Source: an uncultured Nocardioides sp. (lineage in GTDB: Bacteria > Actinomycetota > Actinomycetes > Propionibacteriales > Nocardioidaceae). From it: DNA of 25,583 nt. The position numbers and the translations under genes were made by a program. The stretch is from assembly GCF_946885725.1 (NCBI RefSeq), contig NZ_CAMPGZ010000027.1:1-25583 (forward strand), written 5' to 3'. A model generated the notes under the pieces. It worked only from the letters and a program-made list of their open reading frames with translations, ran no database searches and was not told the origin of the DNA. Below, piece after piece: positions 1-21,553 of this stretch (its first letter is position 1; every line of letters begins with the position of its first letter).

Positions 1-54
1 GGGCAGGGCGGGCGACGCGCCGCGTGGCGCCGGCGTCGGGGTCCGGACGGTCAT
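1..54 (-). CDS. Start of a gene cut by the window edge, possibly CopD
   Basis: On the minus strand an ATG at 54-52 overlaps the CopC stop codon as ATGA and stays open for 18 codons to the window edge (reads [18 protein letters not shown]). The tight 4-bp overlap is the same arrangement as between the two genes before it, so it is probably the next gene of the copper operon. CopC genes are often followed by copD, which encodes a multi-helix membrane copper importer. That identity is inferred from context alone; the visible residues are a plain polar, proline-rich N-terminus and carry no diagnostic motif. Confidence 0.5.
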   Translation of the reverse strand, partial: MTVRTPTPAPRGASPALP

Positions 55-593
55 GGCCGCCCCCGTGATGTCGCGACGGCGCGGACGGTGCTCAGTGCCG
101 CCGCCAGGACGAGCGCGGCCAGCAGTCCGGCCACGACGAGCTTGGTGCGCAGGTCGGGCAGGCCCGACGCCGGGCTCAGGGCGCTCGGCGTACCGCTCGT
201 GACGGGCTGCGGCCCGACCTCGGTCACGCCGGCACCCTCGGACCGGACCTCGAACCCGACCTCGTCCGAGACACGGTGCCCGTCGACCCCGACCACGGCG
301 AACCGCAGCCGGGCGGGACCGGGCGGCAGGTCCTCGAGCTCCACCTGCACGTGGTTCGCGAACGTGCGTGCCGGCATGCGGCGTACCTCGTCGCCGGCCT
401 CGACGACCACCGTGCTCCCGTCGGGGACCAGGTCGGTCGAGAACTCGAGGTCCACCGGACCGTCGCCCGGGGACCAGGTCCCGCCCGCCACGGTGGATGA
501 CACCAGGTCGGTGTGCGCCGAAGCCGGTGCCGCCATCGCCGTGGCGAGCAGGACCAGGACCGCGCCGGCCAGCACTCGCATCAGGACACTCAT
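51..593 (-). CDS. copC: CopC-type periplasmic/exported copper-binding protein with C-terminal anchor
   Basis: The 180-residue protein has a signal peptide (residues 1-26, ending PASA) followed directly by His27 in AHTDLVSS, the usual N-terminal Cu(II) ligand of CopC. The second signature, [15 protein letters not shown] near residues 102-116, matches the conserved end of the CopC beta-sandwich (His106 is the likely second ligand). A single hydrophobic segment at about 151-172 and a short basic tail anchor it to the membrane. Known CopC proteins bind copper outside the membrane and pass it to CopD or to copper enzymes. The start ATG overlaps the signal peptidase stop by 4 bp (ATGA) and is preceded by AGAGGTGA. 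Its place behind a multicopper oxidase suggests that it supplies or buffers copper for that enzyme. Family assignment is firm; the partner is inferred. Confidence 0.88.
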
Positions 594-1099
594 CGCTCAC
601 CTCTCACGAGACCGGCGTGGCTCGGTGGCCACGCGACGGCCACCACACAGCCGACGACGTCGTCCTCGTCGACCGGACCGAACTTCCTCGAGTCGACCGA
701 ACGGCCACGGTTGTCACCCATCACGAACACCGCGCCGGCCGGCACGCGCACCGGTCCGAAGTAGGTGCCGTCGATCGCCTCCGAAGCGGCGTCCGGGGGA
801 GCGGCGACCCCGTCGATCGCCAGGCGACCGTCCCGCAGGCCCACCCGGTGCCCGGCCGTCGCCACGATCCGCTTGACCAGCAACCCGCCGTCGACGGGGG
901 ACCGCACAGCGACCACGTCGCCACGGCCCCAGGTGCCGGTCCACCGGCACCACTTCGAGACGACCGCGGTGTCGCCGTCCGACAGGGTCGGCTCCATGCT
1001 CTCCTGTCGGACGACGACGGGCTCGACGAGCAGCAACCGGACCACGACGAAGGTCACCACGACCACGCCGAAACCGAATGCCAGTCGAGCGTTGTTCAC
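590..1099 (-). CDS. Type I signal peptidase (S26 family), small form
   Basis: The 169-residue protein carries all core S26 motifs: one N-terminal membrane helix (about 7-25), the catalytic serine in QESMEPTL (Ser34), the catalytic lysine in LLVKRIVA (Lys76), and box [17 protein letters not shown] (128-143). The family cleaves signal peptides outside the membrane. At 169 residues it is shorter than typical housekeeping LepB proteins of actinobacteria, with a reduced beta-domain. The start is GTG at 1099, 6 bp after the oxidase stop, with no clear ribosome site, so translation is probably coupled to the oxidase gene. It sits between multicopper oxidase and CopC, which suggests a dedicated peptidase for this operon, although the oxidase itself uses a Tat-type leader. 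An ordinary second signal peptidase is the alternative. Confidence 0.9.
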
Positions 1100-1105
1100 G
1101 ACGGA

Positions 1106-2803
1106 TCAGCCCTGCATGGGGCGAGCAGCCTTGACGGGGTCCAGCTCGGCGACGTGCTCATGGTCGCCTGCGGAGAACTGGACCATCATGTCGTGGTCCT
1201 CGTGGACCAGGTTGTGGCAGTGCATCATGTAGCGCCCGCTCGGCCTGGGCCATCCGGGGCCGGCGGCCGGGCCACCGAATCGCATGGCCACCTTGATCGT
1301 CTCGTTCTCACCGAGGTACACGACGTCCTTCGGCCCGCGCTCGTGCGGACGGACCAGGTCGGCTCGCCCGTTGCGCGACAGCACCTGGAAGTCCACGAGG
1401 TGGACGTGCACCGGGTGGAACCAGCCGCCCGACGGGTTCCTGAACGTCCAGATCTCGACCGACTCGCTCTCCGGCTCCGCGATGCAGTGCTGGTAGTCGG
1501 TGTCGATGACCTTCTGCCAGTCCTCGCCGTTGATGACCCAGTGGCCGTTCTGGCGCTCGAACGTGAACTGGCGCTGCACGGCGCCCTGGGCCCTGAGCCC
1601 CTGCTCGGTGAACGTCATGGCCTCGTGGACCGGGACGCGTTCCTCCCAGTCGGCCGGGATCGTGTTGTTGCTGGTGTTGCTGGCGGCGCCGCGCACCCGG
1701 AAGCGCATCGCGTAGCCGACGGTGTCGAAGTCCTCGTTGTTGTCCGGGAACAGGTTGCGCAACGTCAGCAGCGTGTTGTCGGGGTACTTGGCGAAGTCGA
1801 TGACGACCTCGTAGCGCTCGGCCTGGCCGTGCAGCAGGTTGCTGACGGACTGAGGCTTCGGCATCAGCCCGCCGTCCGTCGCGATGACGGTCATCGGGAC
1901 TGCGCTCCGGCCGTCGTGCAGCTGCCAGCGGTAGGACCGGGAGGCCGAGGCGTTGAGCAGCCGGAACCGGTACTTCCGCCGCTCCACGACCATCTCCGGC
2001 CACGGGACGCCGTTGACCAGGATGACGTCGCCGTACACGCCGGACTCGCTGTTGTCGTCGTACGCCAGCCGGCCGTCCTTCCAGAACATCGCGTCGCGGA
2101 TCACGACCGGGACGTCGTACGGCGGCCCGGTCGGGATGCCGAGGTTCCGCTCGACGGAGTCGTGCAGGATGTACTCCGCCGCGAGGCCGCTGTAGGCGTT
2201 CTGCGACGTGTGGTGCACGCCGTGGTCGTGGTACCAGAGCGTCCGCGCCTCCTGCGAGTTCGGGTAGAAGTAGTCCTTGTACTGGCCCGGCAGCGTGATG
2301 TCGCTGGCGTAGCCGTCGAACTGCGGCAACGACGCCGACCCGTGCAGGTGCGTCGACGTCCACCGCTTGAGCGGGTCGTTGGTGTACGGCGCCGGCATCT
2401 GCGCGTTCTGGTCCGGCGCCGGCGGCGGCGTGTGCAGCGCGTTGGTCTGGCGCACGACGACGGGCTGCCCGCGCTGCACCCGGATCGTCGGGCCCGGCGT
2501 GACGCCGTTGTAGCCGAAGATCGGCGTCTTGTACCCGGGCATGATCCTCGCGATCGCGAAGGTCTGCACGAGGTGGTACATCGGGTAGCTGCGCACCACC
2601 CCGTCCGGGCAGCGCACGTTGGTGGTGCCGCTCGGTGTCAGCTCCGGCGGCCGGACGAACGGCAACGAGAACGGCTTCGGGAAGGCGCTCTCCCGCATGC
2701 GGTCGCCGCCCGACTTCGTCATCGCGGTGCGACCCAACGGCAGCGTGGCGGCCGCCGCCCCTACTGCTCCGAGCTTGATCAACCCCCTGCGTGAAACTTC
2801 CAT
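1106..2803 (-). CDS. Tat-exported multicopper oxidase (CotA/bilirubin-oxidase type)
   Basis: The 565-residue three-domain cupredoxin oxidase has four copper-binding segments in order: THLHG (about 151-155), WYHDHGVHHT (about 190-199), HPVHVH (about 463-468) and HCHNLVHEDHDMM (about 528-540). The last holds the T1 copper Cys, His and axial Met and has the HED spacing seen in CotA and bilirubin oxidase. A twin-arginine leader, SRRGLIKLG with an alanine-rich stretch, starts at residue 4, so folding and copper loading occur before export. I chose ATG 2803, because GGAGGA lies just upstream and it puts the twin arginines at the N-terminus; an upstream in-frame start at 2836 adds 11 residues that look non-coding. 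These enzymes oxidise phenols, bilirubin or Cu(I) while reducing oxygen to water; the substrate here is unknown. It heads an operon with a signal peptidase and CopC. Confidence 0.93.
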   Translation of the reverse strand: MEVSRRGLIKLGAVGAAAATLPLGRTAMTKSGGDRMRESAFPKPFSLPFVRPPELTPSGTTNVRCPDGVVRSYPMYHLVQTFAIARIMPGYKTPIFGYNGVTPGPTIRVQRGQPVVVRQTNALHTPPPAPDQNAQMPAPYTNDPLKRWTSTHLHGSASLPQFDGYASDITLPGQYKDYFYPNSQEARTLWYHDHGVHHTSQNAYSGLAAEYILHDSVERNLGIPTGPPYDVPVVIRDAMFWKDGRLAYDDNSESGVYGDVILVNGVPWPEMVVERRKYRFRLLNASASRSYRWQLHDGRSAVPMTVIATDGGLMPKPQSVSNLLHGQAERYEVVIDFAKYPDNTLLTLRNLFPDNNEDFDTVGYAMRFRVRGAASNTSNNTIPADWEERVPVHEAMTFTEQGLRAQGAVQRQFTFERQNGHWVINGEDWQKVIDTDYQHCIAEPESESVEIWTFRNPSGGWFHPVHVHLVDFQVLSRNGRADLVRPHERGPKDVVYLGENETIKVAMRFGGPAAGPGWPRPSGRYMMHCHNLVHEDHDMMVQFSAGDHEHVAELDPVKAARPMQG

Positions 2804-2822
2804 GCGTGTCTCCTCCACCCCA

Positions 2823-2844
2823 CCACGGCCCGGCACGGCCGTGG
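2823..2844 (-). promoter_or_regulatory. Perfect 8-bp inverted repeat in the oxidase leader
   Basis: CCACGGCC and GGCCGTGG flank a 6-bp spacer, 19 bp before the oxidase start codon and just upstream of its ribosome site. It could be an operator or an mRNA hairpin that affects translation. Only the symmetry is seen. Confidence 0.4.
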
Positions 2845-5731: not shown

Positions 5732-6646
5732 TCAGGCGGCGAAGCCGGTCCGGACCTCGCGGGCGAGCACCTCGATGTCGGCGGACAGCAGCTGTCGCAG
5801 TCCCGAGCTCGCGGCCAGCGACCGCCGGAGCAACTCGATCAGGACGCGTGCCTCGGCGGGCTCGGACAGCGCGTCTCCGCCGCCGGCCCGCAGCACCTCG
5901 GCGTAGACCTCCCGCGTGGCGGGGTCGGGGTCGCAGCCCATCTCCTCGGAGAGCGTCTCGGCCAGCACCTGGTAGAGCCGGAGCGCCTCGTTGAGCCGGC
6001 CATCGAGCGCTCGCGCGCGCATGGCCACCCGCAGGGCCGGCTCGCACAGGGGGTCCCAGTCGAGCGCGACGTCCGCGAGCCTCCGCGCCGGCGTCGTGTC
6101 GCCGGCGTCGAGGGCGAGCCGCGCGGCGTGCGTCGTGGCCGCGACCACCGCTGCGCGCAGCCGGGTGCGCGCCGTCTCGGCCCAGGCGGCGTACGGCTCG
6201 TCGGCGAGCACCGTGCCGCGGACGGCGGCGAGCATCGCGTCGACGTGCTGCGCCGCGGTGCCCGGATCCTCGGTGCCCAGCGCCGCGCGTGCCGACTCCA
6301 GTGACCGGTCCAGGTCGATGTCGACCGAGCGCGGGTCGAGAACGTAACCACCGCGTGCGGTCAGGATCACCGGCGCGCCGTCGGTCGCGCGCTCGAGGGT
6401 ACGGCGCAGGACGCATACGTAGCTCTCGACCGTGGCCAGCCACGACGCCGGCGGGTTCGCGCCCCACAGCCCCTCGGCCAGCTGCTCCTTCGCGACCATC
6501 TGACCCGCGGACAGTGCCAGCAGTGCCAGCACCTGGCGAGGCTTCACGCCCCGGATCTCGATCAGCCCGCCGTCAGGAGCGGTGTCGTCCGGGCCGGAGG
6601 TCGTGACCTCGAACGGACCCGTCAGTGTGATGTGGATCGTGGTCAT
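5732..6646 (-). CDS. SARP-type transcriptional regulator (winged helix plus BTAD)
   Basis: The 304-residue protein has an OmpR-like winged helix at about 1-105 (ITLTGPFEV, GVKPRQVLALLAL, WGANPPASWLATVESYVCVLRRTLE, ARGGYVLDP) and a bacterial transcriptional activator domain at about 112-255 (LYQVLAETLSEEMGCDPDPATREVYAEVL). This is the short SARP layout (AfsR N-terminal part) with no ATPase or TPR module, and such proteins activate promoters by binding direct repeats. I chose ATG 6646 because MTTIHITLTG begins the fold; an in-frame upstream start at 6748 would cover the repeat-rich promoter region. GGGGAGG lies about 10 bases upstream. Divergent from the secreted PKD protein, which may be its target. 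No biosynthetic cluster is visible here, so a role in antibiotic control is not supported. Confidence 0.9.
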   Translation of the reverse strand: MTTIHITLTGPFEVTTSGPDDTAPDGGLIEIRGVKPRQVLALLALSAGQMVAKEQLAEGLWGANPPASWLATVESYVCVLRRTLERATDGAPVILTARGGYVLDPRSVDIDLDRSLESARAALGTEDPGTAAQHVDAMLAAVRGTVLADEPYAAWAETARTRLRAAVVAATTHAARLALDAGDTTPARRLADVALDWDPLCEPALRVAMRARALDGRLNEALRLYQVLAETLSEEMGCDPDPATREVYAEVLRAGGGDALSEPAEARVLIELLRRSLAASSGLRQLLSADIEVLAREVRTGFAA

Positions 6647-10918: not shown

Positions 10919-11368
10919 TCACCTCTCGGTCAAGACCGAGGGTGCGAGGTCGACGTCCGGGACGAGTTCGGCAAGGAGCTCGCGAACGCGAGTGTCGAGG
11001 TCGCCGATGATGCGGCGCACGGTGGCGTCGTCCTGGCCGCCGGGGTCGTCGACTGGCCAGTCCACGTACTTCACGCCGGGCACGTACGGGCACTCCTCGC
11101 CGCAGCCAAGGGTGATGGCGAGGTCGCTGGTCGCGACCGTGTCCCGGGTGAGGAGTGTCGGCTGTTCGGCGCTGGTGTCGAGGCCGAGAGCGTTGAGGGC
11201 GCGGGCGACCTCGGGGTGGATGTGCTCGCCGGGCTGGGTGCCTGCCGACACCGCGCGGACCCGGCCTTGGGCGTAGTGCTCGGTGAGGACGCGGGCGATG
11301 ACCGACCGGCCACCGTTGCGGACGCAGGCGAAGACAACCTGTGGCACGTGGGGGTCGTCGGCGTTCAC
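10919..11368 (-). CDS. arsC: Arsenate reductase, low-molecular-weight phosphatase fold
   Basis: The 149-residue protein has the phosphatase-type anion loop C-X5-R near its start (ACVRNGGRS, Cys15 to Arg21), SAGTQPG at 41-47, and two more cysteines in LGCGEECPYVPG (Cys89, Cys93) followed by DWPVDDPGG. This layout matches actinobacterial ArsC proteins that reduce arsenate to arsenite using mycothiol and mycoredoxin; thioredoxin coupling is the alternative. The loop usually reads CVHNAGRS; here HNA is RNG. I chose GTG 11368 because it overlaps the upstream channel gene as GTGA and AGGAGC precedes it; a much longer frame upstream is antisense to other genes. It is the last gene of the minus-strand ars operon. 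Confidence 0.92.
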   Translation of the reverse strand: MNADDPHVPQVVFACVRNGGRSVIARVLTEHYAQGRVRAVSAGTQPGEHIHPEVARALNALGLDTSAEQPTLLTRDTVATSDLAITLGCGEECPYVPGVKYVDWPVDDPGGQDDATVRRIIGDLDTRVRELLAELVPDVDLAPSVLTER

Positions 11369-12192
11369 GGGATGCTCCTGTCGGTGCTGGTGCGTGGGTT
11401 GGTGGGGTGTGGAAGGACGGCGCGAGCGGCGGTGTCGGCCCCGGGAGTGCCCGGTTGGTCGACGTCGGGGTGGAACCAGCGCACCAGCAGGACAGCGAGT
11501 ACGGCGCCGACGACCTGGGCGGCGAGGAACCCGATGACCGAAGTTGGGGCGATGCCGGCGAACGTGTCGGTGAAGGCTCGGCCGATGGTGACAGCGGGGT
11601 TGGCGAAGCTGGTGCTGGAGGTGAACCAGTAGGCGGCGCCGATGTAGATGCCTACCGCGGGTGCCGCCAACGCGCCGCGGCCGGTGCGGGCGAGGATGAA
11701 GATGAGCGCGACCAGTCCCGTGGTGGCGACGAGCTCGCCGAGCAGCAAATGGTTGCCGGTCCGGGGTTTGGTGGAGATCTCGACGACGGGCAGGTCGAAC
11801 ATCAGGTTTGCGAGGGCCGCCCCGGCGATGCCGCCGACGACCTGGGCGGCGCTGTAGGCGCTCACCTCGGGCAGCGTGAGACCGGTGCGTGTGCGGCGGC
11901 CGAGATACCAGTCCGCGAGTGAGACGACCGGGTTGAAGTGCGCGCCCGAGGTCGGGCCGAACATGAGGATGAGGACCGTCAGGCCGAATGCGGTCGCAGT
12001 CGAGTTCTCCAGCAGCTGCAGGCCGACGTCGCCGGGGGAGAGGCGTTCGGCGGCGATGCCGGAGCCGACCACGATGGTGACGAGCAGCAGTGTGCCAAGC
12101 GCTTCGGCGCTCAGCCGCCGAGCCAGGGTCGGCTGGCGGGGCTGTGCGGGTCGTACCGGCGGTCCGTCCGGTGCGTGGGGTGCGTCGGTCAC
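11365..12192 (-). CDS. MIP-family channel (aquaglyceroporin-like, probable arsenite exit)
   Basis: The 275-residue protein has six membrane helices and both half-helix motifs of the aquaporin family, GAHFNPV (83-89, NPV instead of NPA) and SFANPAVTIGRAFTDTFAGI (195-214). The fold lies between about 24 and 242; N- and C-terminal tails are polar. In Sinorhizobium an aquaglyceroporin next to arsC replaces the arsenite pump and lets arsenite flow out. Here also the gene overlaps arsC by 4 bp and no ArsB or Acr3 is present, so the same role is inferred. I chose GTG 12192, which has GGAAGGAA upstream; ATG 12273 with GGAG is an alternative that adds 27 residues. The gap to the MFS gene is 204 bp with no visible gene. 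Confidence 0.88.
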   Translation of the reverse strand: MTDAPHAPDGPPVRPAQPRQPTLARRLSAEALGTLLLVTIVVGSGIAAERLSPGDVGLQLLENSTATAFGLTVLILMFGPTSGAHFNPVVSLADWYLGRRTRTGLTLPEVSAYSAAQVVGGIAGAALANLMFDLPVVEISTKPRTGNHLLLGELVATTGLVALIFILARTGRGALAAPAVGIYIGAAYWFTSSTSFANPAVTIGRAFTDTFAGIAPTSVIGFLAAQVVGAVLAVLLVRWFHPDVDQPGTPGADTAARAVLPHPTNPRTSTDRSIP

Positions 12193-12396
12193 GCGGTTCC
12201 TTCCGTGCCCGAGCCGCCGGCCGGGGGAGGCAACCGTGCGGACGGAGTGGGTCTGAGCCTGCTCGAGGCTCATTGTCTCCGAGAAGAGCTCTCGAAGAAG
12301 CACGGTGACCGTGGCCGTGGACGCCAAGGTCGGTACTCGCTGCGCCGGTCGTCGGCCGAACAGGACGCCCTTCTCTGGTCAGCGGCTGCGGGGGAG

Positions 12397-13707
12397 TCAC
12401 GACCGCGCAGAGGATCGTGCGGCGCGCGCGGATGGCCGCGTAGGGGACGAGCAGGCGACCACGAGGGTGCCGACGGCCGCGAGACCGGCCAGGGCGAGGA
12501 ACGCGCCGGTCCAGCCGCCGAGCACGGCCGCGAGGGCGGCGCCGACGAACGGTGCTGCGGCGCCGGCGACGAGGCTCGGCGCGGTGAGGACGCCGGACAG
12601 CCGGCCGTACGCGTGGGTGCCCCACCGGTCGGTGACCGCGGTGGCCTGGATGAGCGTGTAGACGCCGCGCGCCAACCCGAGCAGCACCGAGAGCCCGATG
12701 ACCACCGCCGCGACGGGCGGTGCCACGGCCAGCGCCACGGTCGCTGCCGCGGTCGCGGTGCCCACCATGACCAGGCGGCCGGTCGGTGTGGTCGCCGCCG
12801 CGAACCGCGCGTACCCGAGTCGGCCGGCGACCTGTCCGACGCCGCCCAGGCCGAGAGCGACCGCGGCCACACCGGGACTGAGGCCGGCGTCGACGAGTGC
12901 CGGGATGAGGTTCACGACCAACGCGTACGTCGCCAGGGTCAGCAGCGAGGCGCCGAAGGCCAGCAGCACGAACGGTCGTGACCGTGTCACCGTCCACGGG
13001 TCCCAGGCCGGGGCGTCCGCGTCGGGCTCGGGCACCGGGCCGTCGTGGACGTCGAGTGCGGGGTCCGGTTGCCGGTGGCGTGCGGACGGCGTCCATGGCT
13101 TCGCCAGTCCCCACCAGTGCAGCGGCGTCACTGCCAGAAGCAGGACCGCGGCGAGCAGCAAGTAGGTGGAGCGCCATCCCATCGCCTGGTCGAGCGAGGT
13201 GGTCAGGGGTGCGAACACGGTGCTGGCCAGGCCGCCGACCAGGGTCAACGTGGTCAGCGCCCGTACCCGGTCCGGGCCGCCCCAGTGCGTCAGCGCGGCG
13301 AACGCCGGCGGGTACAGGCTGCCGGCCATCGCCGCCCCGGCCAGCAGCCAGCCGGCAGCGAACACCCAGAACGACTCGGCGGTGGCGACGACGCCCAGCG
13401 CGGCCACGGCGAGGAGGCCGAAGATGGTCATGACGCGTCGAGGTCCGTAGTCGTCGATGTGCCGACCGACCCAGATCCCGGTGGCGCCGTTGACCACCTG
13501 GGCGCCGGAGAACGCGGCCGCGATGGCCACGTGGCTCCAGCCCGTGTCAGCGCTGATGGGCCCCTGCAGGACGGTGAACGCGTAGTACAGGACACCCCAG
13601 GAGGTGATCTGCGCGGCGCTCAGGGTCGCGACGACCTGCCGCAGGTCGCGACGCGGCAGCCCGGCCGAAACACCGTCCGGCCGGGCCACCTGGTCAGGTG
13701 CTGTCAT
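12397..13707 (-). CDS. Major facilitator superfamily transporter in the ars operon
   Basis: The 436-residue protein has twelve predicted helices. The first half (about 25-200) includes GRHIDDYGPRRVM, the loop 2-3 motif of the superfamily. A charged loop (about 202-240, rich in Pro and Asp) separates it from the second half. N- and C-tails are short. It looks like the monocarboxylate/OFA-type branch rather than ArsB or Acr3, and no arsenite-pump motif is seen. Its substrate is unknown; export of an organoarsenical or related antibiotic would fit neighbouring ArsO and the ArsN-like domain. It starts 7 bp after the arsO stop, so it is cotranscribed. The ATG at 13707 is well placed. Confidence 0.9.
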   Translation of the reverse strand: MTAPDQVARPDGVSAGLPRRDLRQVVATLSAAQITSWGVLYYAFTVLQGPISADTGWSHVAIAAAFSGAQVVNGATGIWVGRHIDDYGPRRVMTIFGLLAVAALGVVATAESFWVFAAGWLLAGAAMAGSLYPPAFAALTHWGGPDRVRALTTLTLVGGLASTVFAPLTTSLDQAMGWRSTYLLLAAVLLLAVTPLHWWGLAKPWTPSARHRQPDPALDVHDGPVPEPDADAPAWDPWTVTRSRPFVLLAFGASLLTLATYALVVNLIPALVDAGLSPGVAAVALGLGGVGQVAGRLGYARFAAATTPTGRLVMVGTATAAATVALAVAPPVAAVVIGLSVLLGLARGVYTLIQATAVTDRWGTHAYGRLSGVLTAPSLVAGAAAPFVGAALAAVLGGWTGAFLALAGLAAVGTLVVACSSPTRPSARAARSSARS

Positions 13708-13714
13708 TCGCCTG

Positions 13715-15130
13715 TCAGCCGCGGGTGGTCACCGTCTCCAAGGAGACGAAGTCGCTGCGTCCGGCAGGCACCGCCGGGCCGCAGCAACCGCCCGCCACTG
13801 GACCCGTCTCGATGTCGACCTCGTCGTCGAACCGGCCCGACCCGTCGCACACCCCGGTCTCCGGCAGCACCAGCTCGACCTTGTCCGCCGCCTCCAGGTC
13901 ACCGTCCAGCGCGGCGACCACCGAACGAGCCTGCTCGTACCCGGTCATGGCCAGGAACGACGGCGCCCGACCATAGGACTTCATCCCCACCACGAACAGG
14001 TTCGCCTCCGGCTGCGCCAGCTCACGGTGCCCGTGCGGGGCGACGTCACCACAGGAGTGGAACGACGGGTCGATCTGGGCCGCCAGCGCCCGCACCGACC
14101 CCAGCACCGGGTCCAGGTCCAGACGAACCTCGGAGAGGAACGAGTGGTCCGGACGGAACCCGGTGACCACGACGACCTCGTCGACGTCGGTCACCTCCGC
14201 TCCCGTGGTGGACACGATGGTGAGACGACCGTCGGCTTGAGCCCGGACCTCGCTGGTGCGGAACTGGGTCACGGTCGTGACGTGACCGCCCTCGGCCGCC
14301 TGACGTGCCTGCTTCCCCAGCGCACCACGCTCGGGGAGCTGGTCGTTGTCGCCACCACCGAACGCGTCACCGACCGACGGGCGCCGCAGCAGCCAGGACA
14401 CCCGGGTGTCCGGGTCCTCCTGCGCGAGCCTGCCCAGGCCGACCAGGACACCTTGGGCGGATGCGCCCTTGCCGGCCAGCGCCACGTGCTTGCCGGCGTA
14501 CCGGGCCGCCACCGTCGGGTCACGGAAGTCCGGGATGCCGTAGTGGATGCGGTCCGCGTGCGCGGCCTCCCCGACCGCGGGGTAGCCGTCCGAGCCGAGC
14601 GGGTTCGGCTGCCACCAGGTGCCCGACGCGTCGATGACCGCCGAAGCCTCCACCCGACCCTCGCCGCCGTCAGCGTCGACGACGTGGATGACGAACGGCT
14701 CGGCCTCCCGACCCGAGGCGACGACGCGGTCACGACCCTTCCGGGCGACACCTACGACTCGCGTGCCGTACCGGACCTCGCCGACCGGGCGGGCGTCCAG
14801 GGTGTCCGCGAGCGGCTGCAGGTACTCCTCACGCCACGCGTCACCGCTCGGGTAGTCGGTCAGATCCGGCGCCTCCCACCCGGTCGCCTCCAGCAGCTTG
14901 CGTGCCGTGGGGTCGATCAGCTCCGACCAGGCCGAGAACAACCGGACGTGCGCCCATTCCGCTACAGCAGCGCCGGCGACGGGGCCTGCCTCCAGGACCA
15001 CGAACGGCAGACCGCGGTCCGCTGCGTTCGCGGCGGCGGCCAGCCCGACCGGTCCCGCGCCGATCACCACCAGCGGCGCGGACTCGGAAACGCGGGCGCC
15101 GGGGGCGCCGGCGATGCGCACTGTGCTCAT
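13715..15130 (-). CDS. arsO: ArsO-like flavin-dependent monooxygenase
   Basis: The 471-residue protein has an FAD-binding motif, VVIGAGPVGLAAAANAA (21-37), and a second nucleotide motif, VALAGKGASAQGVLVGL, in mid-protein for NADPH, as in class B flavoprotein monooxygenases. RLFSAWSELIDPTARKLL and VVVTGFRPDHS are further family-like blocks. The C-terminal tail is Cys/Gly-rich (GPVAGGCCGPAVP). ArsO genes are common in ars operons of bacteria; their biochemical role is still poorly defined, and oxidation or monooxygenation of an arsenical is assumed. ATG 15130 with GAGGAG upstream was chosen; the frame upstream runs antisense through the regulator. It is first in the minus-strand operon and divergent from the ArsR-ArsN fusion. 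Confidence 0.85.
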   Translation of the reverse strand: MSTVRIAGAPGARVSESAPLVVIGAGPVGLAAAANAADRGLPFVVLEAGPVAGAAVAEWAHVRLFSAWSELIDPTARKLLEATGWEAPDLTDYPSGDAWREEYLQPLADTLDARPVGEVRYGTRVVGVARKGRDRVVASGREAEPFVIHVVDADGGEGRVEASAVIDASGTWWQPNPLGSDGYPAVGEAAHADRIHYGIPDFRDPTVAARYAGKHVALAGKGASAQGVLVGLGRLAQEDPDTRVSWLLRRPSVGDAFGGGDNDQLPERGALGKQARQAAEGGHVTTVTQFRTSEVRAQADGRLTIVSTTGAEVTDVDEVVVVTGFRPDHSFLSEVRLDLDPVLGSVRALAAQIDPSFHSCGDVAPHGHRELAQPEANLFVVGMKSYGRAPSFLAMTGYEQARSVVAALDGDLEAADKVELVLPETGVCDGSGRFDDEVDIETGPVAGGCCGPAVPAGRSDFVSLETVTTRG

Positions 15131-15168
15131 GAGTGCTCTCCTCAGAAACGGGCCCGGGCAGTCCCGGA

Positions 15169-15214
15169 GGTTCCATCGACGTTCTTCGATGGAACCGTAT
15201 CGACGGGCATCGAT
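15169..15214. promoter_or_regulatory. Tandem ars operators, two ATCGA-N6-TCGAT palindromes
   Basis: The first palindrome has 11-bp perfect arms, GGTTCCATCGA (15169-15179) and TCGATGGAACC (15186-15196). The second has core arms ATCGA (15199-15203) and TCGAT (15210-15214). Both share ATCGA-N6-TCGAT and start 24 bp apart. They lie between divergent arsO and the arsR fusion, next to the -10 of the latter. They are the likely binding sites of the ArsR domain, giving repression of both sides. Symmetry is seen; binding is inferred. Confidence 0.8.
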
Positions 15215-15223
15215 GAAAGCAAG

Positions 15224-15229
15224 TACTCT
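15224..15229 (+). promoter_or_regulatory. Possible -10 element TACTCT of a leaderless ars transcript
   Basis: TACTCT fits TAnnnT and ends 6 bases before ATG 15236, so transcription would begin at or next to the start codon. No ribosome site is visible, which agrees with a leaderless message. The second operator would lie over the -35 region. Confidence 0.5.
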
Positions 15230-15235
15230 GGGTAC

Positions 15236-16192
15236 ATGACCGCGACAAGCCCGCCTACCGCGACGACCGGGCCGATGGACCTCGTGCTGCTCGAAGACCA
15301 CCCGGACCAGACGCGCGTCGAGACCCTGCTCAGCAAGGCCGAGGCCAGCACCTACGCCGAGTGGTTCTCCACGCTCGGCGACCCCACCCGCGTCCGCCTC
15401 CTCCACGCGGTCGCCTCTCGCTCGACCGGCGTCAAGGTCGGCGACCTGGCCAAGCTCCTCGGCATCAGCCAGTCGACCTGCTCCCACCACGTCGATCTGC
15501 TCCGCAAGGTCGGGTTCGTGGTCGTCGACAAGGTCGGCCCCTCCAGCGTCGTCCACGTCAACACCGCGTGCTGCGCCGGCCTGCCGCACGCGGCCGACGT
15601 CATCATGGGCACCCTGGCCACCGCACCCTGCTGCCCGTCCGACCTGCCCGATGGCGTCACGACCCGTGCCATGACCGACGACGACCTCGCCGTCGTCCAA
15701 GCCATCTACGCCGAAGGCATCGCCACCCGCAACGCCACCTTCGAGACCGAGGTCCCGACCATCGAGGCGCTGCGCACCAAGTTCCTGCCCGGTCACCGGT
15801 GGGTCGCCGAAGCCCACCCCGACCACCCGACCATGGGCGACGTCACCGGCCCCGACGGCTCCCGCATCGTCGGCTGGACCGCCATCTCCCCCGTCTCCAG
15901 TCGGGAGGTGTACTCAGGCGTCGGCGAGAGCTCCGTCTACGTCACCGCCTCGGCCCGGGGGCGAGGCATCGGAAAGGCGCTGCTCCACCGACAGGTCACC
16001 GAAGCCGACGCCGCCACCGAGAACGGTGGCATCTGGACCCTGCAGACCTCGATCTTCCCCGAGAACCGGGCCTCCATCGCCCTGCACAGATCAGCCGGCT
16101 ACCAGACCATCGCCGTACGACCCCGCATCGCACAGCTCGACGGTGTCTGGCGCGACACGGTCCTCATGGAACGCCGCCGCGCATGTGACTGA
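15236..16192 (+). CDS. ArsR repressor fused to ArsN-like GNAT acetyltransferase
   Basis: The 318-residue protein has two domains. Residues about 25-130 are an ArsR/SmtB winged helix (TLGDPTRVRLLHAV, DLAKLLGISQSTCSHHVDLLRKVGFV). It has Cys82 in the recognition helix, a Cys112-Cys113 pair in NTACCAGLPHAADVIMG and Cys132-Cys133, all plausible arsenite ligands. Residues about 142-314 are a GNAT enzyme of the phosphinothricin/arsinothricin acetyltransferase (ArsN1) type: IYAEGIATRNATFETE, VGWTAISPVSSREVY, SSVYVTASARGRGIGKALL (acetyl-CoA loop 241-248) and ENRASIALHRSAGY. The domains are in frame with no stop. Such enzymes N-acetylate arsinothricin or phosphinothricin. The fused form would be both sensor and detoxifying enzyme; that link is inference. 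ATG 15236 is chosen from the -10 spacing; the longer upstream frame is antisense to arsO. Confidence 0.92.
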   Translation: MTATSPPTATTGPMDLVLLEDHPDQTRVETLLSKAEASTYAEWFSTLGDPTRVRLLHAVASRSTGVKVGDLAKLLGISQSTCSHHVDLLRKVGFVVVDKVGPSSVVHVNTACCAGLPHAADVIMGTLATAPCCPSDLPDGVTTRAMTDDDLAVVQAIYAEGIATRNATFETEVPTIEALRTKFLPGHRWVAEAHPDHPTMGDVTGPDGSRIVGWTAISPVSSREVYSGVGESSVYVTASARGRGIGKALLHRQVTEADAATENGGIWTLQTSIFPENRASIALHRSAGYQTIAVRPRIAQLDGVWRDTVLMERRRACD

Positions 16193-16383: not shown

Positions 16384-16410
16384 GTAGGCCCCGTGGTGTA
16401 GGCCCCGTGG
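16384..16410. repeat. Tandem duplication of the tRNA-Lys 3' end
   Basis: GTAGGCCCCGTGG is present twice, at 16384-16396 and 16398-16410, one base apart. The second copy covers the acceptor and part of the T arm of the tRNA. Duplicated tRNA 3' ends are usual at integrated-element junctions (att sites). The ars cluster lies on that side. Nearby are two small hairpins (16342-16355, 16355-16371) and the 9-bp repeat CTGCCACGC at 16310 and 16321. Confidence 0.7.
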
Positions 16411-16471
16411 GACTCGAACCCACAACCCGCGGATTAAAAGTCCGCTGCTCTGCCAGTTGAGCTAGAGGCCC
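16399..16471 (-). tRNA. tRNA-Lys (anticodon TTT)
   Basis: The minus strand folds as a 73-nt cloverleaf. The acceptor stem GGGCCTC pairs with GGGGCCT, with G-U at the first and sixth pairs. The D arm is GCTC/GAGC, the anticodon arm GCGGA-CTTTTAA-TCCGC with anticodon TTT, and the T arm GTGGG-TTCGAGT-CCCAC. The discriminator is A and CCA is not encoded. The two wobble pairs in the acceptor stem are slightly unusual; a 3' end replaced by integration could explain them. Confidence 0.95.
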
Positions 16472-16765: not shown

Positions 16766-19700
16766 GTGGGGATGGGGAAGGCCATGTACCAACCTGTTCG
16801 GGGGAAGGGCTCTCGGGTCCGAAACCCAGGGAAAGGCAAGCACGCAGCAACTAGGACGAGGCGGAAGCGAGGCGTTGCCGGCGCCACGACGATCCTCCTC
16901 GGCCTCGGGATGATGCCGGCGATCACATCGTCGGTCGCGACAGCCGCAGTCGCACCGGAGGGTCAGGGGTTCCACCTCAACGCCTCCGACCTGCGGCACA
17001 TCTTCAAGCAGATCCAGATCGCCGAGCAACACGTCGCCAATCCAGGTACGCCGGACAACCCGTGCGCCAGCCTGGTGGGCGATGGCCCGAACCAGATCCC
17101 GCGGGCCGGCAACGGCCGCGAGCTGCCCTGGGGCCTGCGCACCGTGGACGGGTCGTGCAACAACGTGTTCCCGATCGAGGGACGCGACACATGGGGAGCG
17201 GCGGACACGGAGTTCCCGCGGCTGGTGCCGGCCAAGCACCGCGGCGGCTACAACAATCCGAACGGCAACGTCGTAGATCCCGAGCCGCGTCGGATCAGCA
17301 ACCTGATCGTGGACCAGACCAACCGCAACCCCGCCGCCGTCGAGGCCGCGGGCACCGACGTCGCCGCCGCCGACGACAACGGCACCCTGGCGATCGGCAA
17401 CGTGGCGCCGGACGCCGGTCTGTCCGCGCCGTTCAACTCCTGGTTCACGTTGTTCGGGCAGTTCTTCGACCACGGCCTCGACCTGGTCACGAAGAGCAAG
17501 ACGGACTCCGTCGTGATGCCGCTGGCGGCCGACGACCCGCTCGTCGTCGGGGGCCGTGACGGGGACCCGGCCACAACGGCCGACAACGTTCCGGTCGGGA
17601 CGCCCATGATCCTGAGTCGGACCGTCAACTCGAATGGGCGCGAGGCGACGAACACCACGACCTCGTACGTCGACCAGAACCAGACCTACACGTCACACCC
17701 CGCGCACCAGGTGTTCCTGCGCGAGTACGCGGACGCCGCCGCGCCTACCGAGACAGGTGGGCTGCTGACGGGTCCGGGCGGCGGGATGGCCACGTGGGAC
17801 GACGTGCAGGCTCAGGCCAGCTCGATGCTCGGTATCGAGCTCGACGACATGGACGTCCTGAACGTGCCGCTGCTCGTGACCGACCCGTACGGTCACTTCA
17901 CGCGCGGGACGAACGTGCGCCCGCGCGTCGTCTTCGCGGCCGGCGACCAGCCTGCCGGCGCATCGTGCACCGCACCGTCCGGTGGGAACGTCACGTGTGT
18001 CGGCACCCCGGCGAACCCGCTGGACGTGACGAACGCGGTCAAGACCGGTCACGCGTTCCTCGACGACATCGCCCACGCGGCGGTGCCGAACGCCGCCGGC
18101 ACTCACAACTCAGTGCTGCTCGGTCAGCACTTCGTGGCCGGTGACGGCCGGGCCAACGAGAACATCGGCCTGACCGCGGTGCACCACATCTTCCACGCGG
18201 AGCACAACCGGCTCCAGGCAGACATCGACGGGATGATCCGAGGGGCCAACGCCGTGCTCACCACGGAGGAGGCCACTGCTTGGCAGAACCTCAACCCGAA
18301 CTCCGGCTGGGGCTACGGCGAGCGGCTGTTCCAGGCCGCGCGGTTCGTGACCGAGATGGAGTACCAGCACCTGGTGTTCGAGGAGTTCGCGCGCAAGGTG
18401 CAGCCGATGGTGAACGTCTTCGGCGAGGAGGGTGGCTACCACCCCGAGGTCAACGCCGCGATCCGTGCGGAGTTCGCGCACGCGGTCTACCGGTTCGGCC
18501 ACTCGATGCTGACCGAGACGGTTGCCCGCAAGCGCTTCGACGGCACGAACGACAGCCTTCCGCTGATGTCCGCGTTCCTCAACCCGAACGAGTTCCTCGA
18601 CGGGTACACGAAGGACGTCGACGGGACGACCGTTCCCGACCCAGAGGCTGCGGCCGGCGCGATCATTCGCGGCATGACCCGTCAGACGGGCAACGAGATC
18701 GACGAGTTCGTGACCGAGGCCCTGCGGAACAACCTGCTCGGTCTCCCGCTGGACCTGGCCACGATCAACATGGCCCGGGCTCGCGACGCCGGCGTGCCGC
18801 GGCTCAACGAGGCACGGCGCGCGTTCTTCGCCAAGTCCGGCAACACCGCCCTGCAGCCCTACGAGAGCTGGGCCGACTTCGGGTTCAGCCTCAAGCACCG
18901 CGCGTCGCTGGTGAACTTCATCGCGGCGTACGGCACGCACGGCACGGTCACTGCGGAGACAACGGTCGCGGGACGACGCAACGCCGCCGCGCTGCTGCTG
19001 TACGGACCGGCAGGTGCGGACGGGGTCCTGGAGGACATCGCCACTACTCCGGAGAACGAGGCCGCGGACAACCCGACCGGCACCCAGCCGGCGGACGCGT
19101 CCGACTTCCTCAACGGCACCGGGACCTGGGCGGACGACCCGGAGACGGGTCTGCCGACCACCGGCCTCGAGGACATCGACCTGTGGGTCGGCGGCCTGGC
19201 CGAGAAGCAGATGGTCTTCGGTGGTCTGCTCGGCCCCACGTTCAACTACGTGTTCGAGCTCCAGATGGAGGACCTGCAGGACGGTGACCGGTTCTACTAC
19301 CTGCACCGCACGCCGGGCATGAACCTGCTCACCCAGCTCGAGGGCAACTCGTTCTCCGAGCTGATCATGCGCAACACCGACGTGCAGGGACTGCCCGCGG
19401 ACTCGTTCTCGCGGCCGGACCTTGTCTTCAACCTCGCGAACCTGAGCACCGTGGAGGACAACCCCGACACGGTGGACATCGACGAGTCCACGCTCCTCAC
19501 CACGATGGCGGACGGGACGCTTCGCTTCTCCGGTACCGAGCACGCCGTCTTCAACGGCAGCGCTGAGAACGACCGCATCTGGTCGAGCGAAGGCGACGAC
19601 ACGATCCGCGGCAACGACGGTGACGACTGGATCCAGGGCGGCGACGGCAACGACAACCATGTCGGTGGCCTGGGCAACGACATCCTCGTCGACCTCAACG

Positions 19701-21553
19701 GTGACGACGTCATCAAGGGCGGCGGTGGCCACGACGCCATCTCCTCCGGCCAGGGTGGCGGCGGCGACCTCAACCAGGGTGGCTTCGGCAACGACTTCAT
19801 CCTGGGTGGGAACGACATCACCGAGACGTTCGCGGGTGAAGGTGACGACGTCGTGTACGGCGGCGACGCCGAGGACTTCGTCTTCGGTGACGGCGGCGAC
19901 GACTGGATCGAAGGCGGTCGTGGTCCCTTCGACCAGCTCATGGGCGACAACGGCCAGCCGTTCCAGGACGACATCAACGAGGCCGGCCACGACGTGATGA
20001 TCGCGTACGGCGGAGAGAAGGACTACGACTCCGAGGGCGGGGACGACATCATGCTCCACGGCCCCGGCATCCAGCGGAGTGAAGGCATGCGTGGCTTCGA
20101 CTGGGTCACCCACCAGGGCGACCCGCTCCCGGCCGACTCGGACATGCTCTTCACGGGTCTTCTCCCGCCGATCGAGGCCAACCGCGACCGGTTCGACATG
20201 GTCGAGGCGCTCTCGGGTGCCAACTTCAACGACATCCTGCGTGGGGACGACCGTGGAGTCGCCGACCTCACCCCGCCTGCCAACGAGCCCAAGGAGTCGC
20301 ACGTGCTGGACGCGGCGGGCGTGGCCAGGATCACCGGGGCGAACACGCTGTTCCGGGCCGACCAGCTCCCGTCGGGAGACCGTGTCTTCGCGGGCGGCAA
20401 CATCATCATGGGTGGTGACGGCAGCGACGTGCTCGAGGGTCGTGGCGGCGATGACATCATCGACGGCGACGCGCAGCTCGAGGTCCGGCTCGTCGTCCCC
20501 TACAAGGACGGCAGCGTGCGGCGGGTGACGAGCATGCTCGACGTGCAGGCCGACGTACTGGCCGGCCGGACGCTTCTGGGCCAGCACTCGATCGAGCGGA
20601 TGATCGTCCGTCCGAGCAGCCCGGGCGACCATGACGTGGCGCTGTTCTCGAACCCGCAGGACGAGTACACCATCACCAACAACGCCGACGGCACGGTGAC
20701 GGTCGCGCACGACGGCGGCACCGGCATCGACGGCACGGACACGTTGCGCGGCATCGAGGAGATGCTGTTCAACCAGGCCGTGCTGGACGACACTCCGGAC
20801 CCGCCGGCCGCGCCGACGCTGCTCCAGGTGACCCCTGGGGTCGGCAGCGTCACGGTCAACTTCACCGCTGGTGCGGATGGTGGTCTGCCGATCACCGAGT
20901 TCCGGGTGAGCGTGTTCGAGGGTTCGTCCACCACGCCCGACAGGACCCTCGTGGTCCCGTCGAGCCAGACATCGCTCACGGTGAAGGGTCTGACCCCGGG
21001 TGTGCCGGTCAGGGTCACGGTGGCCGCGGTGAACGCCGCGGGCGTCGGCACCGCGTCCGCGAAGTCGGCCCCCGTCACGCCGAAGGCGCCGGAGGTTCCG
21101 GACGGTGACACCGGCACGCCTCCGGGCACCGGTACCACGCCGCCTGGCACGGGGACTCCTCCGGGCACGGTTCCGCCGCCTCCGGGCACGGGATCGGGTA
21201 CGACGCCTCCGGGTACGACTCCTCCGGGCACCGGCAAGCTGACCGCGCCGGACGCACCCAAGGTGCGCAAGGCCAAGTCCGGCAAGCGGGGCGGCGTCAA
21301 GACCGCGACCGCGAGGTGGGCGGCACCGGCCGTCGACGGCGGCTCGGCAGTCACGGGCTACCGGGTCTACGCAATCAAGATCGGGGCGAACGGCAAGGTC
21401 AAGAAGGTGACCCGCTCGAAGCTCATCGACTCCGATCGCCGCAGCATCAAGATGCGCCTGCCCGCCGGTCTCTACCGGTTCCAGGTCATGGCCATCAACG
21501 ACATCGGTCAGGGTGACCTGTCGGCGCGGTCCAACACCGTCGTCAGCAGATAA
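16766..21553 (+). CDS. Secreted animal-type haem peroxidase with RTX-like and FnIII domains
   Basis: The 1595-residue protein has a long basic N-terminus and a signal peptide (TTILLGLGMMPAITSSVATA). The peroxidase domain (about 150-890) shows the distal His in FGQFFDHGLDL (His236), RANENIGLTAVHHIFHAEHN, and the proximal His in YRFGHSML (His579), which match animal haem (peroxidasin-like) enzymes. Residues 930-1055 and 1209-1235 hold RTX-like GGxGxDx calcium repeats. Two FnIII-like domains (about 1345-1441, 1493-1595) flank a PPGT linker. It probably acts outside the cell and oxidises halides or phenolics with peroxide; the substrate is unknown. The start is uncertain: GTG 16766 or ATG 16772 or 16784, with GGGGAAGG too near the last. 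It is followed by a strong terminator, so monocistronic. Confidence 0.92.
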   Translation: MGMGKAMYQPVRGKGSRVRNPGKGKHAATRTRRKRGVAGATTILLGLGMMPAITSSVATAAVAPEGQGFHLNASDLRHIFKQIQIAEQHVANPGTPDNPCASLVGDGPNQIPRAGNGRELPWGLRTVDGSCNNVFPIEGRDTWGAADTEFPRLVPAKHRGGYNNPNGNVVDPEPRRISNLIVDQTNRNPAAVEAAGTDVAAADDNGTLAIGNVAPDAGLSAPFNSWFTLFGQFFDHGLDLVTKSKTDSVVMPLAADDPLVVGGRDGDPATTADNVPVGTPMILSRTVNSNGREATNTTTSYVDQNQTYTSHPAHQVFLREYADAAAPTETGGLLTGPGGGMATWDDVQAQASSMLGIELDDMDVLNVPLLVTDPYGHFTRGTNVRPRVVFAAGDQPAGASCTAPSGGNVTCVGTPANPLDVTNAVKTGHAFLDDIAHAAVPNAAGTHNSVLLGQHFVAGDGRANENIGLTAVHHIFHAEHNRLQADIDGMIRGANAVLTTEEATAWQNLNPNSGWGYGERLFQAARFVTEMEYQHLVFEEFARKVQPMVNVFGEEGGYHPEVNAAIRAEFAHAVYRFGHSMLTETVARKRFDGTNDSLPLMSAFLNPNEFLDGYTKDVDGTTVPDPEAAAGAIIRGMTRQTGNEIDEFVTEALRNNLLGLPLDLATINMARARDAGVPRLNEARRAFFAKSGNTALQPYESWADFGFSLKHRASLVNFIAAYGTHGTVTAETTVAGRRNAAALLLYGPAGADGVLEDIATTPENEAADNPTGTQPADASDFLNGTGTWADDPETGLPTTGLEDIDLWVGGLAEKQMVFGGLLGPTFNYVFELQMEDLQDGDRFYYLHRTPGMNLLTQLEGNSFSELIMRNTDVQGLPADSFSRPDLVFNLANLSTVEDNPDTVDIDESTLLTTMADGTLRFSGTEHAVFNGSAENDRIWSSEGDDTIRGNDGDDWIQGGDGNDNHVGGLGNDILVDLNGDDVIKGGGGHDAISSGQGGGGDLNQGGFGNDFILGGNDITETFAGEGDDVVYGGDAEDFVFGDGGDDWIEGGRGPFDQLMGDNGQPFQDDINEAGHDVMIAYGGEKDYDSEGGDDIMLHGPGIQRSEGMRGFDWVTHQGDPLPADSDMLFTGLLPPIEANRDRFDMVEALSGANFNDILRGDDRGVADLTPPANEPKESHVLDAAGVARITGANTLFRADQLPSGDRVFAGGNIIMGGDGSDVLEGRGGDDIIDGDAQLEVRLVVPYKDGSVRRVTSMLDVQADVLAGRTLLGQHSIERMIVRPSSPGDHDVALFSNPQDEYTITNNADGTVTVAHDGGTGIDGTDTLRGIEEMLFNQAVLDDTPDPPAAPTLLQVTPGVGSVTVNFTAGADGGLPITEFRVSVFEGSSTTPDRTLVVPSSQTSLTVKGLTPGVPVRVTVAAVNAAGVGTASAKSAPVTPKAPEVPDGDTGTPPGTGTTPPGTGTPPGTVPPPPGTGSGTTPPGTTPPGTGKLTAPDAPKVRKAKSGKRGGVKTATARWAAPAVDGGSAVTGYRVYAIKIGANGKVKKVTRSKLIDSDRRSIKMRLPAGLYRFQVMAINDIGQGDLSARSNTVVSR
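21109..21234 (+). repeat. PPGTG-type linker repeat inside the peroxidase gene
   Basis: Codons for (T)PPGTG and PPGTT recur about eight times between the two FnIII-like domains, with imperfect DNA copies of CCTCCGGGCAC. It is an extended flexible linker, probably long enough to span cell wall. Such repeats change length by slippage, so copy number may differ between strains. Confidence 0.8.

Follow-up and report, generated by a model that had tools for sequence, protein, structure and literature searches.

Proteins that hold an ars regulator or enzyme within one fused polypeptide are already known. As far as the accessible text of each paper goes, ArsR-ArsC, ArsN-ArsC and ArsN-ArsD fusions have been described (PMC6205960), as have Acr3-ArsC and ArsR-ArsC2 (PMC6514093), and AqpS-ArsC is another published ars fusion (PMC6205960, PMC6514093 and PMC10190100, as a group). 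Repressor-enzymes are known as well, since the ArsR-ArsM fusion of Brevundimonas M20 was reported to bind its own promoter (PMC10190100, accessible text). The protein described here is like these, and none of those named pairs ArsR with ArsN; the accessible part of a comparison of actinobacterial ars clusters makes no mention of an ArsR-ArsN fusion (PMC6514093). We found no description of an ArsR-ArsN/GNAT fusion in the open-licence PMC literature, outside which most subscription papers lie. The pairing thus appears to be undescribed, and the coupling of its two halves is the key question.

The As(III) sites published for ArsR repressors comprise Cys32/34/37, Cys95/96/102 and Cys15/16/55, and the third Cys is missing from SpArsR, which is selective for MAs(III) (PMC11868830, accessible text). 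ArArsR is a further ArsR type, in which Cys 41, 43, 80, 82, 107 and 108 were mutated (accessible parts of PMC11868830 and PMC13236881), and the accessible part of PMC11212059 reports that As(III) binding turns a model peptide of the AfArsR site from a random coil into an ordered state. The arsinothricin acetyltransferase PpArsN1 contacts arsinothricin through Ile31, Phe33, Ala124 and Val158 of one chain and Arg75, Ala76 and Arg77 of the other (PMC6465285, accessible text).

The stretch of DNA analysed here, referred to as the window, is a 25,583-nucleotide contig of an uncultured Nocardioides sp. It carries a single gene in which an ArsR repressor is joined to an acetyltransferase:

15236-16192, forward strand: fused gene, 318 amino acids, ArsR/SmtB winged-helix repressor plus GNAT acetyltransferase (translation, Pfam, homologues, alignment)
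15329-15652, forward strand: ArsR part, residues 32-139, with HTH_20 at residues 47-97 (Pfam, AlphaFold model)
15656-16177, forward strand: GNAT domain, residues 141-314, of the phosphinothricin/ArsN acetyltransferase fold, with the acetyl-CoA motif RGRGIG at 241-246 (Pfam, NCBIfam, alignment, Foldseek)

Translation of the fused gene yields 318 residues and a stop, with no internal stop codon. The Pfam search that the earlier note had proposed placed both halves over their curated cut-offs, with HTH_20 at 41.5 bits (cut-off 27), HTH_5 at residues 49-95 with 40.6 bits (cut-off 22), Acetyltransf_1 at 203-289 with 31.9 bits (cut-off 20.7) and Acetyltransf_4 at 144-308 with 28.1 bits (cut-off 24.3). 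This bears out that note's reading of one continuous frame joining an ArsR winged helix to a GNAT domain of the phosphinothricin/arsinothricin acetyltransferase type, and the two HTH scores place the protein in the ArsR/SmtB family. The NCBIfam model HTH_metalloreg (NF033788, cut-off 55 bits) scored 54.2 bits on the window protein and 56.6, 58.1 and 59.0 bits on the fused relatives L016, L069 and L021. In the AlphaFold model (mean pLDDT 75.4, pTM 0.59), the ArsR part has a predicted recognition helix at residues 79-92 and predicted wing strands at 95-100 and 103-108.

The fused gene faces a divergent row of ars-type genes, with 105 bases between the two starts:

13715-15130, reverse strand: FAD/NAD(P) oxidoreductase (Pyr_redox_3), 471 amino acids, the divergent partner (Pfam, tblastn)
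12397-13707, reverse strand: MFS transporter, best model ArsK (Pfam, NCBIfam)
11365-12327, reverse strand: MIP/aquaporin-family channel (Pfam)
10919-11368, reverse strand: protein of the low-molecular-weight phosphatase fold, candidate ArsC-type arsenate reductase, GTG start assumed (Pfam, NCBIfam)

The specific ars models all scored under their cut-offs on these partners: ArsK gave 171.4 bits on the transporter (cut-off 400), the arsenate reductase model NF010053 gave 46.5 bits on the phosphatase-fold protein (cut-off 215), and the ArsO flavin monooxygenase model NF040505 gave 38.1 bits on the oxidoreductase (cut-off 425). A second flavoprotein, present at two relatives, scored 243.0 and 251.6 bits with NF040505, likewise under the cut-off. 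Homologues of the neighbours were counted by tblastn (E <= 1e-10) in the fetched DNA. In 23 of 27 fused loci an oxidoreductase homologue lies next to the fused gene in divergent orientation (it is absent in L003, L019, L020 and L021), and 3 of 47 unfused loci have one nearby. Those three belong to the six actinobacterial unfused loci, so in this phylum-confounded comparison the oxidoreductase is a mark of actinobacterial ars loci and not of the fusion in particular. Among the 27 fused loci, an MFS homologue was found in 18 (one a 67-residue match), Acr3 in 14 and ArsC in 15.

Beyond the fused gene, about 200 bases away, lies a tRNA-Lys(ttt) gene (16398-16471, reverse strand). An island at this gene was considered and rejected, as the window holds no exact second copy of at least 14 bases of its 3' end. 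Elsewhere, the window encodes a 1595-residue protein that combines an animal-type haem peroxidase domain with RTX calcium-binding repeats and fn3 domains (16766-21553, forward strand), a row of a CopC-domain protein, a signal peptidase S26 and a multicopper oxidase that is perhaps copper-related (51-2836, reverse strand), and a SARP-like regulator with Trans_reg_C and BTAD domains (5732-6646, reverse strand).

The 105-base gap contains two copies of a palindromic motif that the earlier note had not picked up:

15169-15196, either strand: putative operator 1, a perfect 11-nt inverted repeat GGTTCCATCGA-N6-TCGATGGAACC with the core ATCGAN6TCGAT at 15175-15190 (repeat and motif search)
15199-15214, either strand: putative operator 2, a second exact ATCGAN6TCGAT, 24 nt downstream of the first (repeat and motif search)

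These are the only two exact ATCGAN6TCGAT sites in the whole window, and 100 shuffles yielded none. Within 230 bases upstream of the assumed starts, 24 of the 27 fused loci carry one to three exact copies (three copies in 6 loci, two in 17, one in 1), and no exact copy was found upstream of the fused gene in L015, L019 and L020. In 26 of 29 cases the spacing between neighbouring copies is 26-37 bases, compared to 24 in the window. Four further fused loci have one copy each (L077-L079) or none (L076). The motif is rare in controls, with 2 occurrences in 54,000 shuffled upstreams, 2 sites in the 426,880 bases elsewhere in the same 27 fused loci, and 2 sites in the 658,829 bases of 47 unfused loci (L022-L068). 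Both of the latter (L044:9570 and L058:4986) sit just upstream of an unfused arsR, and ATCGAN6TCGAT therefore seems to be an arsR operator of more general use in actinobacteria. Since it may also serve other ArsRs, there would be room for cross-talk. The unfused loci L087 and L090 have one and two sites, respectively. A search for sigma-70-like promoters at 15100-15300 found none. Judged by sequence, operator-like palindromes lie at the presumed regulated promoter, as in other ArsR/SmtB systems, and the fused HTH very likely works as a repressor that controls its own gene. With R773, AfArsR, CgArsR, SpArsR and ArArsR it has in common the winged helix, conserved Cys residues and a palindromic putative operator beside ars-type genes; unlike them, it has a C-terminal enzyme.

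We aligned 148 fused sequences, consisting of P0001-P0121 (among them the protein of the window and its identical copy in the database) and 27 loci, a set that is weighted to close relatives and in which near-copies such as L069 and L074 count separately. The earlier note had placed Cys residues at 82, 112-113 and 132-133, where they indeed are, with one further Cys at 317. Two of its three Cys sites proved conserved:

15569-15574, forward strand: codons of Cys112-Cys113, Cys in 148/148 at each position (alignment of fused sequences)
15629-15634, forward strand: codons of Cys132-Cys133, in a PCCP junction between the domains, Cys in 145/148 at each position (alignment; low model confidence at 111-135)

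Position 82 is Cys in 119 of the 148 sequences and otherwise T, V or A among the residues listed, and Cys82 was rejected as a general ligand. The two pairs flank the last predicted ArsR helix, with 112-113 at its start and 132-133 after its end, where the enzyme is joined on; both fall within residues 111-135, which the AlphaFold model predicts with low confidence. A profile alignment to SmtB sets Cys112 opposite H106, which we take to be a residue of the alpha-5 site.

The Cys arrangement is not one of the familiar ones. A CxC[DE] motif within the first 110 residues occurs in 1 of 121 sequences and a CC ahead of the HTH in 28 of 121, and three Cys at the R773, AfArsR or CgArsR positions were not found (the AfArsR residue alignment reaches its wing only). 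In the aligned residues, the conserved 112-113 and 132-133 differ from the published Cys32/34/37, Cys95/96/102, Cys15/16/55 and Cys101/102, and the arrangement differs from the first four published ArsR types, a comparison that ArArsR falls outside.

A profile search with the ArsR halves led to free ArsRs of a related type, of which we took 45 of the 120 listed (P0217, P0221-P0223 and P0225-P0265). These standalone QSTVSHH...FPSAADVVMG proteins (e.g. P0239, P0262) are 41-51% identical to the ArsR half and carry no enzyme, and we know of no characterisation of them. In P0217 the beginning of a GNAT can apparently still be read, and this protein may be a fused relative that was truncated. The fused ArsR half and the free type therefore have a common ancestor. 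C112 is common to both (45/45 free proteins), whereas C113 occurs in 0/45 and C115 in 26/45 takes its place; the Cys112-Cys113 pair therefore seems specific to the fused form. Past residue 125, some Cys is present in 23 of the 45 and a CC pair in 4. The free type itself, with its invariant Cys112 and with Cys115 before FPSAADVVMG or similar, may be a further type of arsenic site.

The reading that we prefer (probability about 0.6) is a self-regulating, bifunctional repressor-enzyme, which a trivalent arsenical would derepress at the Cys pairs and whose GNAT half would N-acetylate an arsinothricin- or phosphinothricin-like amino acid. When the toxin is absent, a dimer of the ArsR half would sit on both ATCGA-N6-TCGAT operators in the gap and repress its own gene together with the oxidoreductase-MFS-MIP-ArsC operon. 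Arsenite or a trivalent organoarsenical would bind C112-C113 and/or C132-C133 and cause release from the DNA, and both divergent transcripts would rise. The GNAT half, expected to form a dimer with shared active sites, would then acetylate its substrate, and the partner proteins would oxidise, reduce or move arsenicals.

PAT/ArsN-type GNATs carry the acetyl-CoA motif Q/RxxGxG/A, which is present in the GNAT half as R241-G-R-G-I-G246. Conservation among the 148 fused sequences is nearly complete at R241 (143), G244 (147), G246 (148), E231 (146) and H284 (148), presumably the acetyl-CoA motif and active-site positions of the family, and catalysis by the GNAT half is likely. Foldseek matched the GNAT half of the model to phosphinothricin acetyltransferases and to P. 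putida ArsN (5jtf, 5wph) with probability 1.00, and also to 9igl. The earlier note's assignment to an ArsN1-like enzyme holds in part: the best NCBIfam model is ArsN1 family A (NF040503) and the neighbours are of ars type, but the score of 124.2 bits is under the curated cut-off of 170. By residues mapped through intermediate sequences rather than directly to 5jtf, PpArsN1 Phe33 corresponds to F169 and Arg77 to R223, each found in 148/148, and the substrate-gate Arg75 corresponds to Ser221, Ser in 148/148. The same position is Ser in all 26 fused and unfused relatives of a second alignment (A2), and the Ser therefore marks a wider ArsN1-A-like group. Compared to ArsN1 (NF040503/NF040504; PpArsN1 5jtf/5wph), the fused protein thus shares the fold, the best model, the Phe33 and Arg77 equivalents and the ars-type neighbours, and differs in carrying a repressor, in scoring under the curated cut-offs and in the Ser at the gate. 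Arsinothricin is a plausible substrate.

These differences also bear on the possibility that the ArsR half is an arsenic repressor and arsenic a signal only, with the GNAT half acetylating another substrate such as methionine sulfoximine, phosphinothricin or another amino acid or peptide. We consider this possible but doubtful. The change of the gate Arg75 to Ser speaks for it, as do the phosphinothricin acetyltransferase labels on many of the solved relatives and the ArsN1 A cut-off, which was missed by all 11 sequences scanned (ten further fused or unfused relatives scored 118.1-143.5 bits). ArsN1 A is nonetheless by far the best model, with 55.3 bits for ArsN1 B and 29.4 bits for phosphinothricin acetyltransferase, and the fused gene faces arsenic-type genes.

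An unlikely alternative is that the fusion is a convenience of co-expression: a stop codon would have been lost in an arsR-arsN operon, leaving two tethered halves that work independently without mutual gain. Unfused arsR-arsN neighbours do exist, as two genes with a four-base overlap in L051 (7908-8285 and 8282-8881) and as genes in frame with a single TGA between them in L080 (match 1501-2316, estimated). The ArsRs of both loci are of another type, with an N-terminal CC and a CVCD motif, and descent of the fusion from an operon like either is therefore not supported. The near-invariant Cys pair of the junction also argues against mere convenience, as does C113, whose absence from the free sister ArsRs points to the 112-113 pair having arrived together with the fusion.

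The history of the fusion was followed in two trees of the GNAT domain. The first had 80 rows, with 16 of 96 rows left out for their reverse orientation (4 of these being distinct fused loci); its 28 fused GNATs form one side of a branch (SH-aLRT 81), and the free Williamsia protein L022 adjoins them (SH-aLRT 98). The second had 95 rows, with the reverse-oriented rows added and L075, a copy of L001, left out, and one set in it unites 32 fused and 3 free rows (L022, L091 and L093) with an SH-aLRT of 99; L093 has a very long branch. Because L022, L091 and L093 fall among the fused rows, the fused/free label needs three changes on this tree, and at most one of them is required by the well-supported branches. 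The fusion may therefore have arisen once. For dN/dS, 15 of 18 listed loci were entered, loci of another length being left out; pairs with a dS of at least 1.6 or not computable were not printed, and L069 or L070 paired with other genera was dropped, an indel having put them out of register. In the printed pairs of 13 Nocardioidaceae loci the ArsR half gave 0.02-0.35 and the GNAT half 0.12-0.38, with dS high in some, and purifying selection therefore acts on both halves.

A closer coupling than the preferred reading calls for, in which substrate or acetyl-CoA bound in the GNAT dimer alters the ArsR dimer through the short junction, so that DNA binding depends both on thiol-reactive arsenic and on the antibiotic itself or the acetylated antibiotic, seems to us quite unlikely. 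The junction is strongly conserved and its length nearly fixed (30 residues from C113 to R144 in 135 of 148 sequences, 33 in 10, and 29-34 in all outside the 135). In addition, the active sites of PpArsN1 are built from both chains (PMC6465285, accessible text), and the ArsR and GNAT halves could therefore share a dimer. Against this, catalysis alone would account for the conservation of the GNAT active-site residues, the coupling by ligand is conjecture, and the junction is modelled with low confidence. In a fuller version, which we regard as distinctly improbable, Cys112-113/132-133 would form a new arsenical site between DNA reader and enzyme within the shared dimer, arsenic and, via the GNAT site, the antibiotic would together set DNA binding, and arsenic would also alter acetyltransferase activity.

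The fusion recurs in many genomes. By a precomputed domain list, both HTH_20 and Acetyltransf_1 are present in 120/120 homologues, the best 120 of 3442 matches; the top homologue, whose sequence is identical, bears the name of a Nocardioides MAG and may come from the window itself. Among 68 loci fetched from genomes, 21 are fused, all 21 with actinobacterial titles, and in the remaining 47 the GNAT relative is not fused to an ArsR. The genome survey proposed by the earlier note, run on 147 Nocardioides genomes (E <= 1e-30), gave a full-length match in 41, a GNAT-only match in 12 and no match in 94. A phylum-wide sample of 396 genomes gave 19 matches (E <= 1e-25), 5 of them fused and full-length, the window's own genome included. 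One of these five (G397) was reported with a TGA, and its locus L076 has no stop in the translated match; a sixth full-length match (G257) is the unfused pair of L080. The fusion is thus common in Nocardioides (41/147) and rarer across the phylum (5/396 sampled, the window's own genome included). A plasmid search matched 1139 records, of which 34 cover at least 80% of the query, and the 30 listed of these 34 are from Rhodococcus, Nocardia and Pseudonocardia. Such proteins are labelled 'helix-turn-helix domain-containing GNAT family N-acetyltransferase' in the database. With full-length relatives in the homologues, loci and Nocardioides genomes counted above and on plasmids of three genera, and with 148 fused sequences alignable end to end, the notion that an assembly or annotation artefact joined two genes is ruled out for practical purposes.

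If the repressor-enzyme reading is true, the protein would offer a testable coupling of repressor and enzyme, a new arsenic-binding Cys arrangement in the ArsR family and, through its operator motif, a basis for predicting targets, and it may be a compact part for arsenic biosensing. In many actinobacteria one gene would then couple arsenic sensing with resistance to an antibiotic that contains arsenic, which would hint at arsinothricin-like compounds as a lasting selective pressure.
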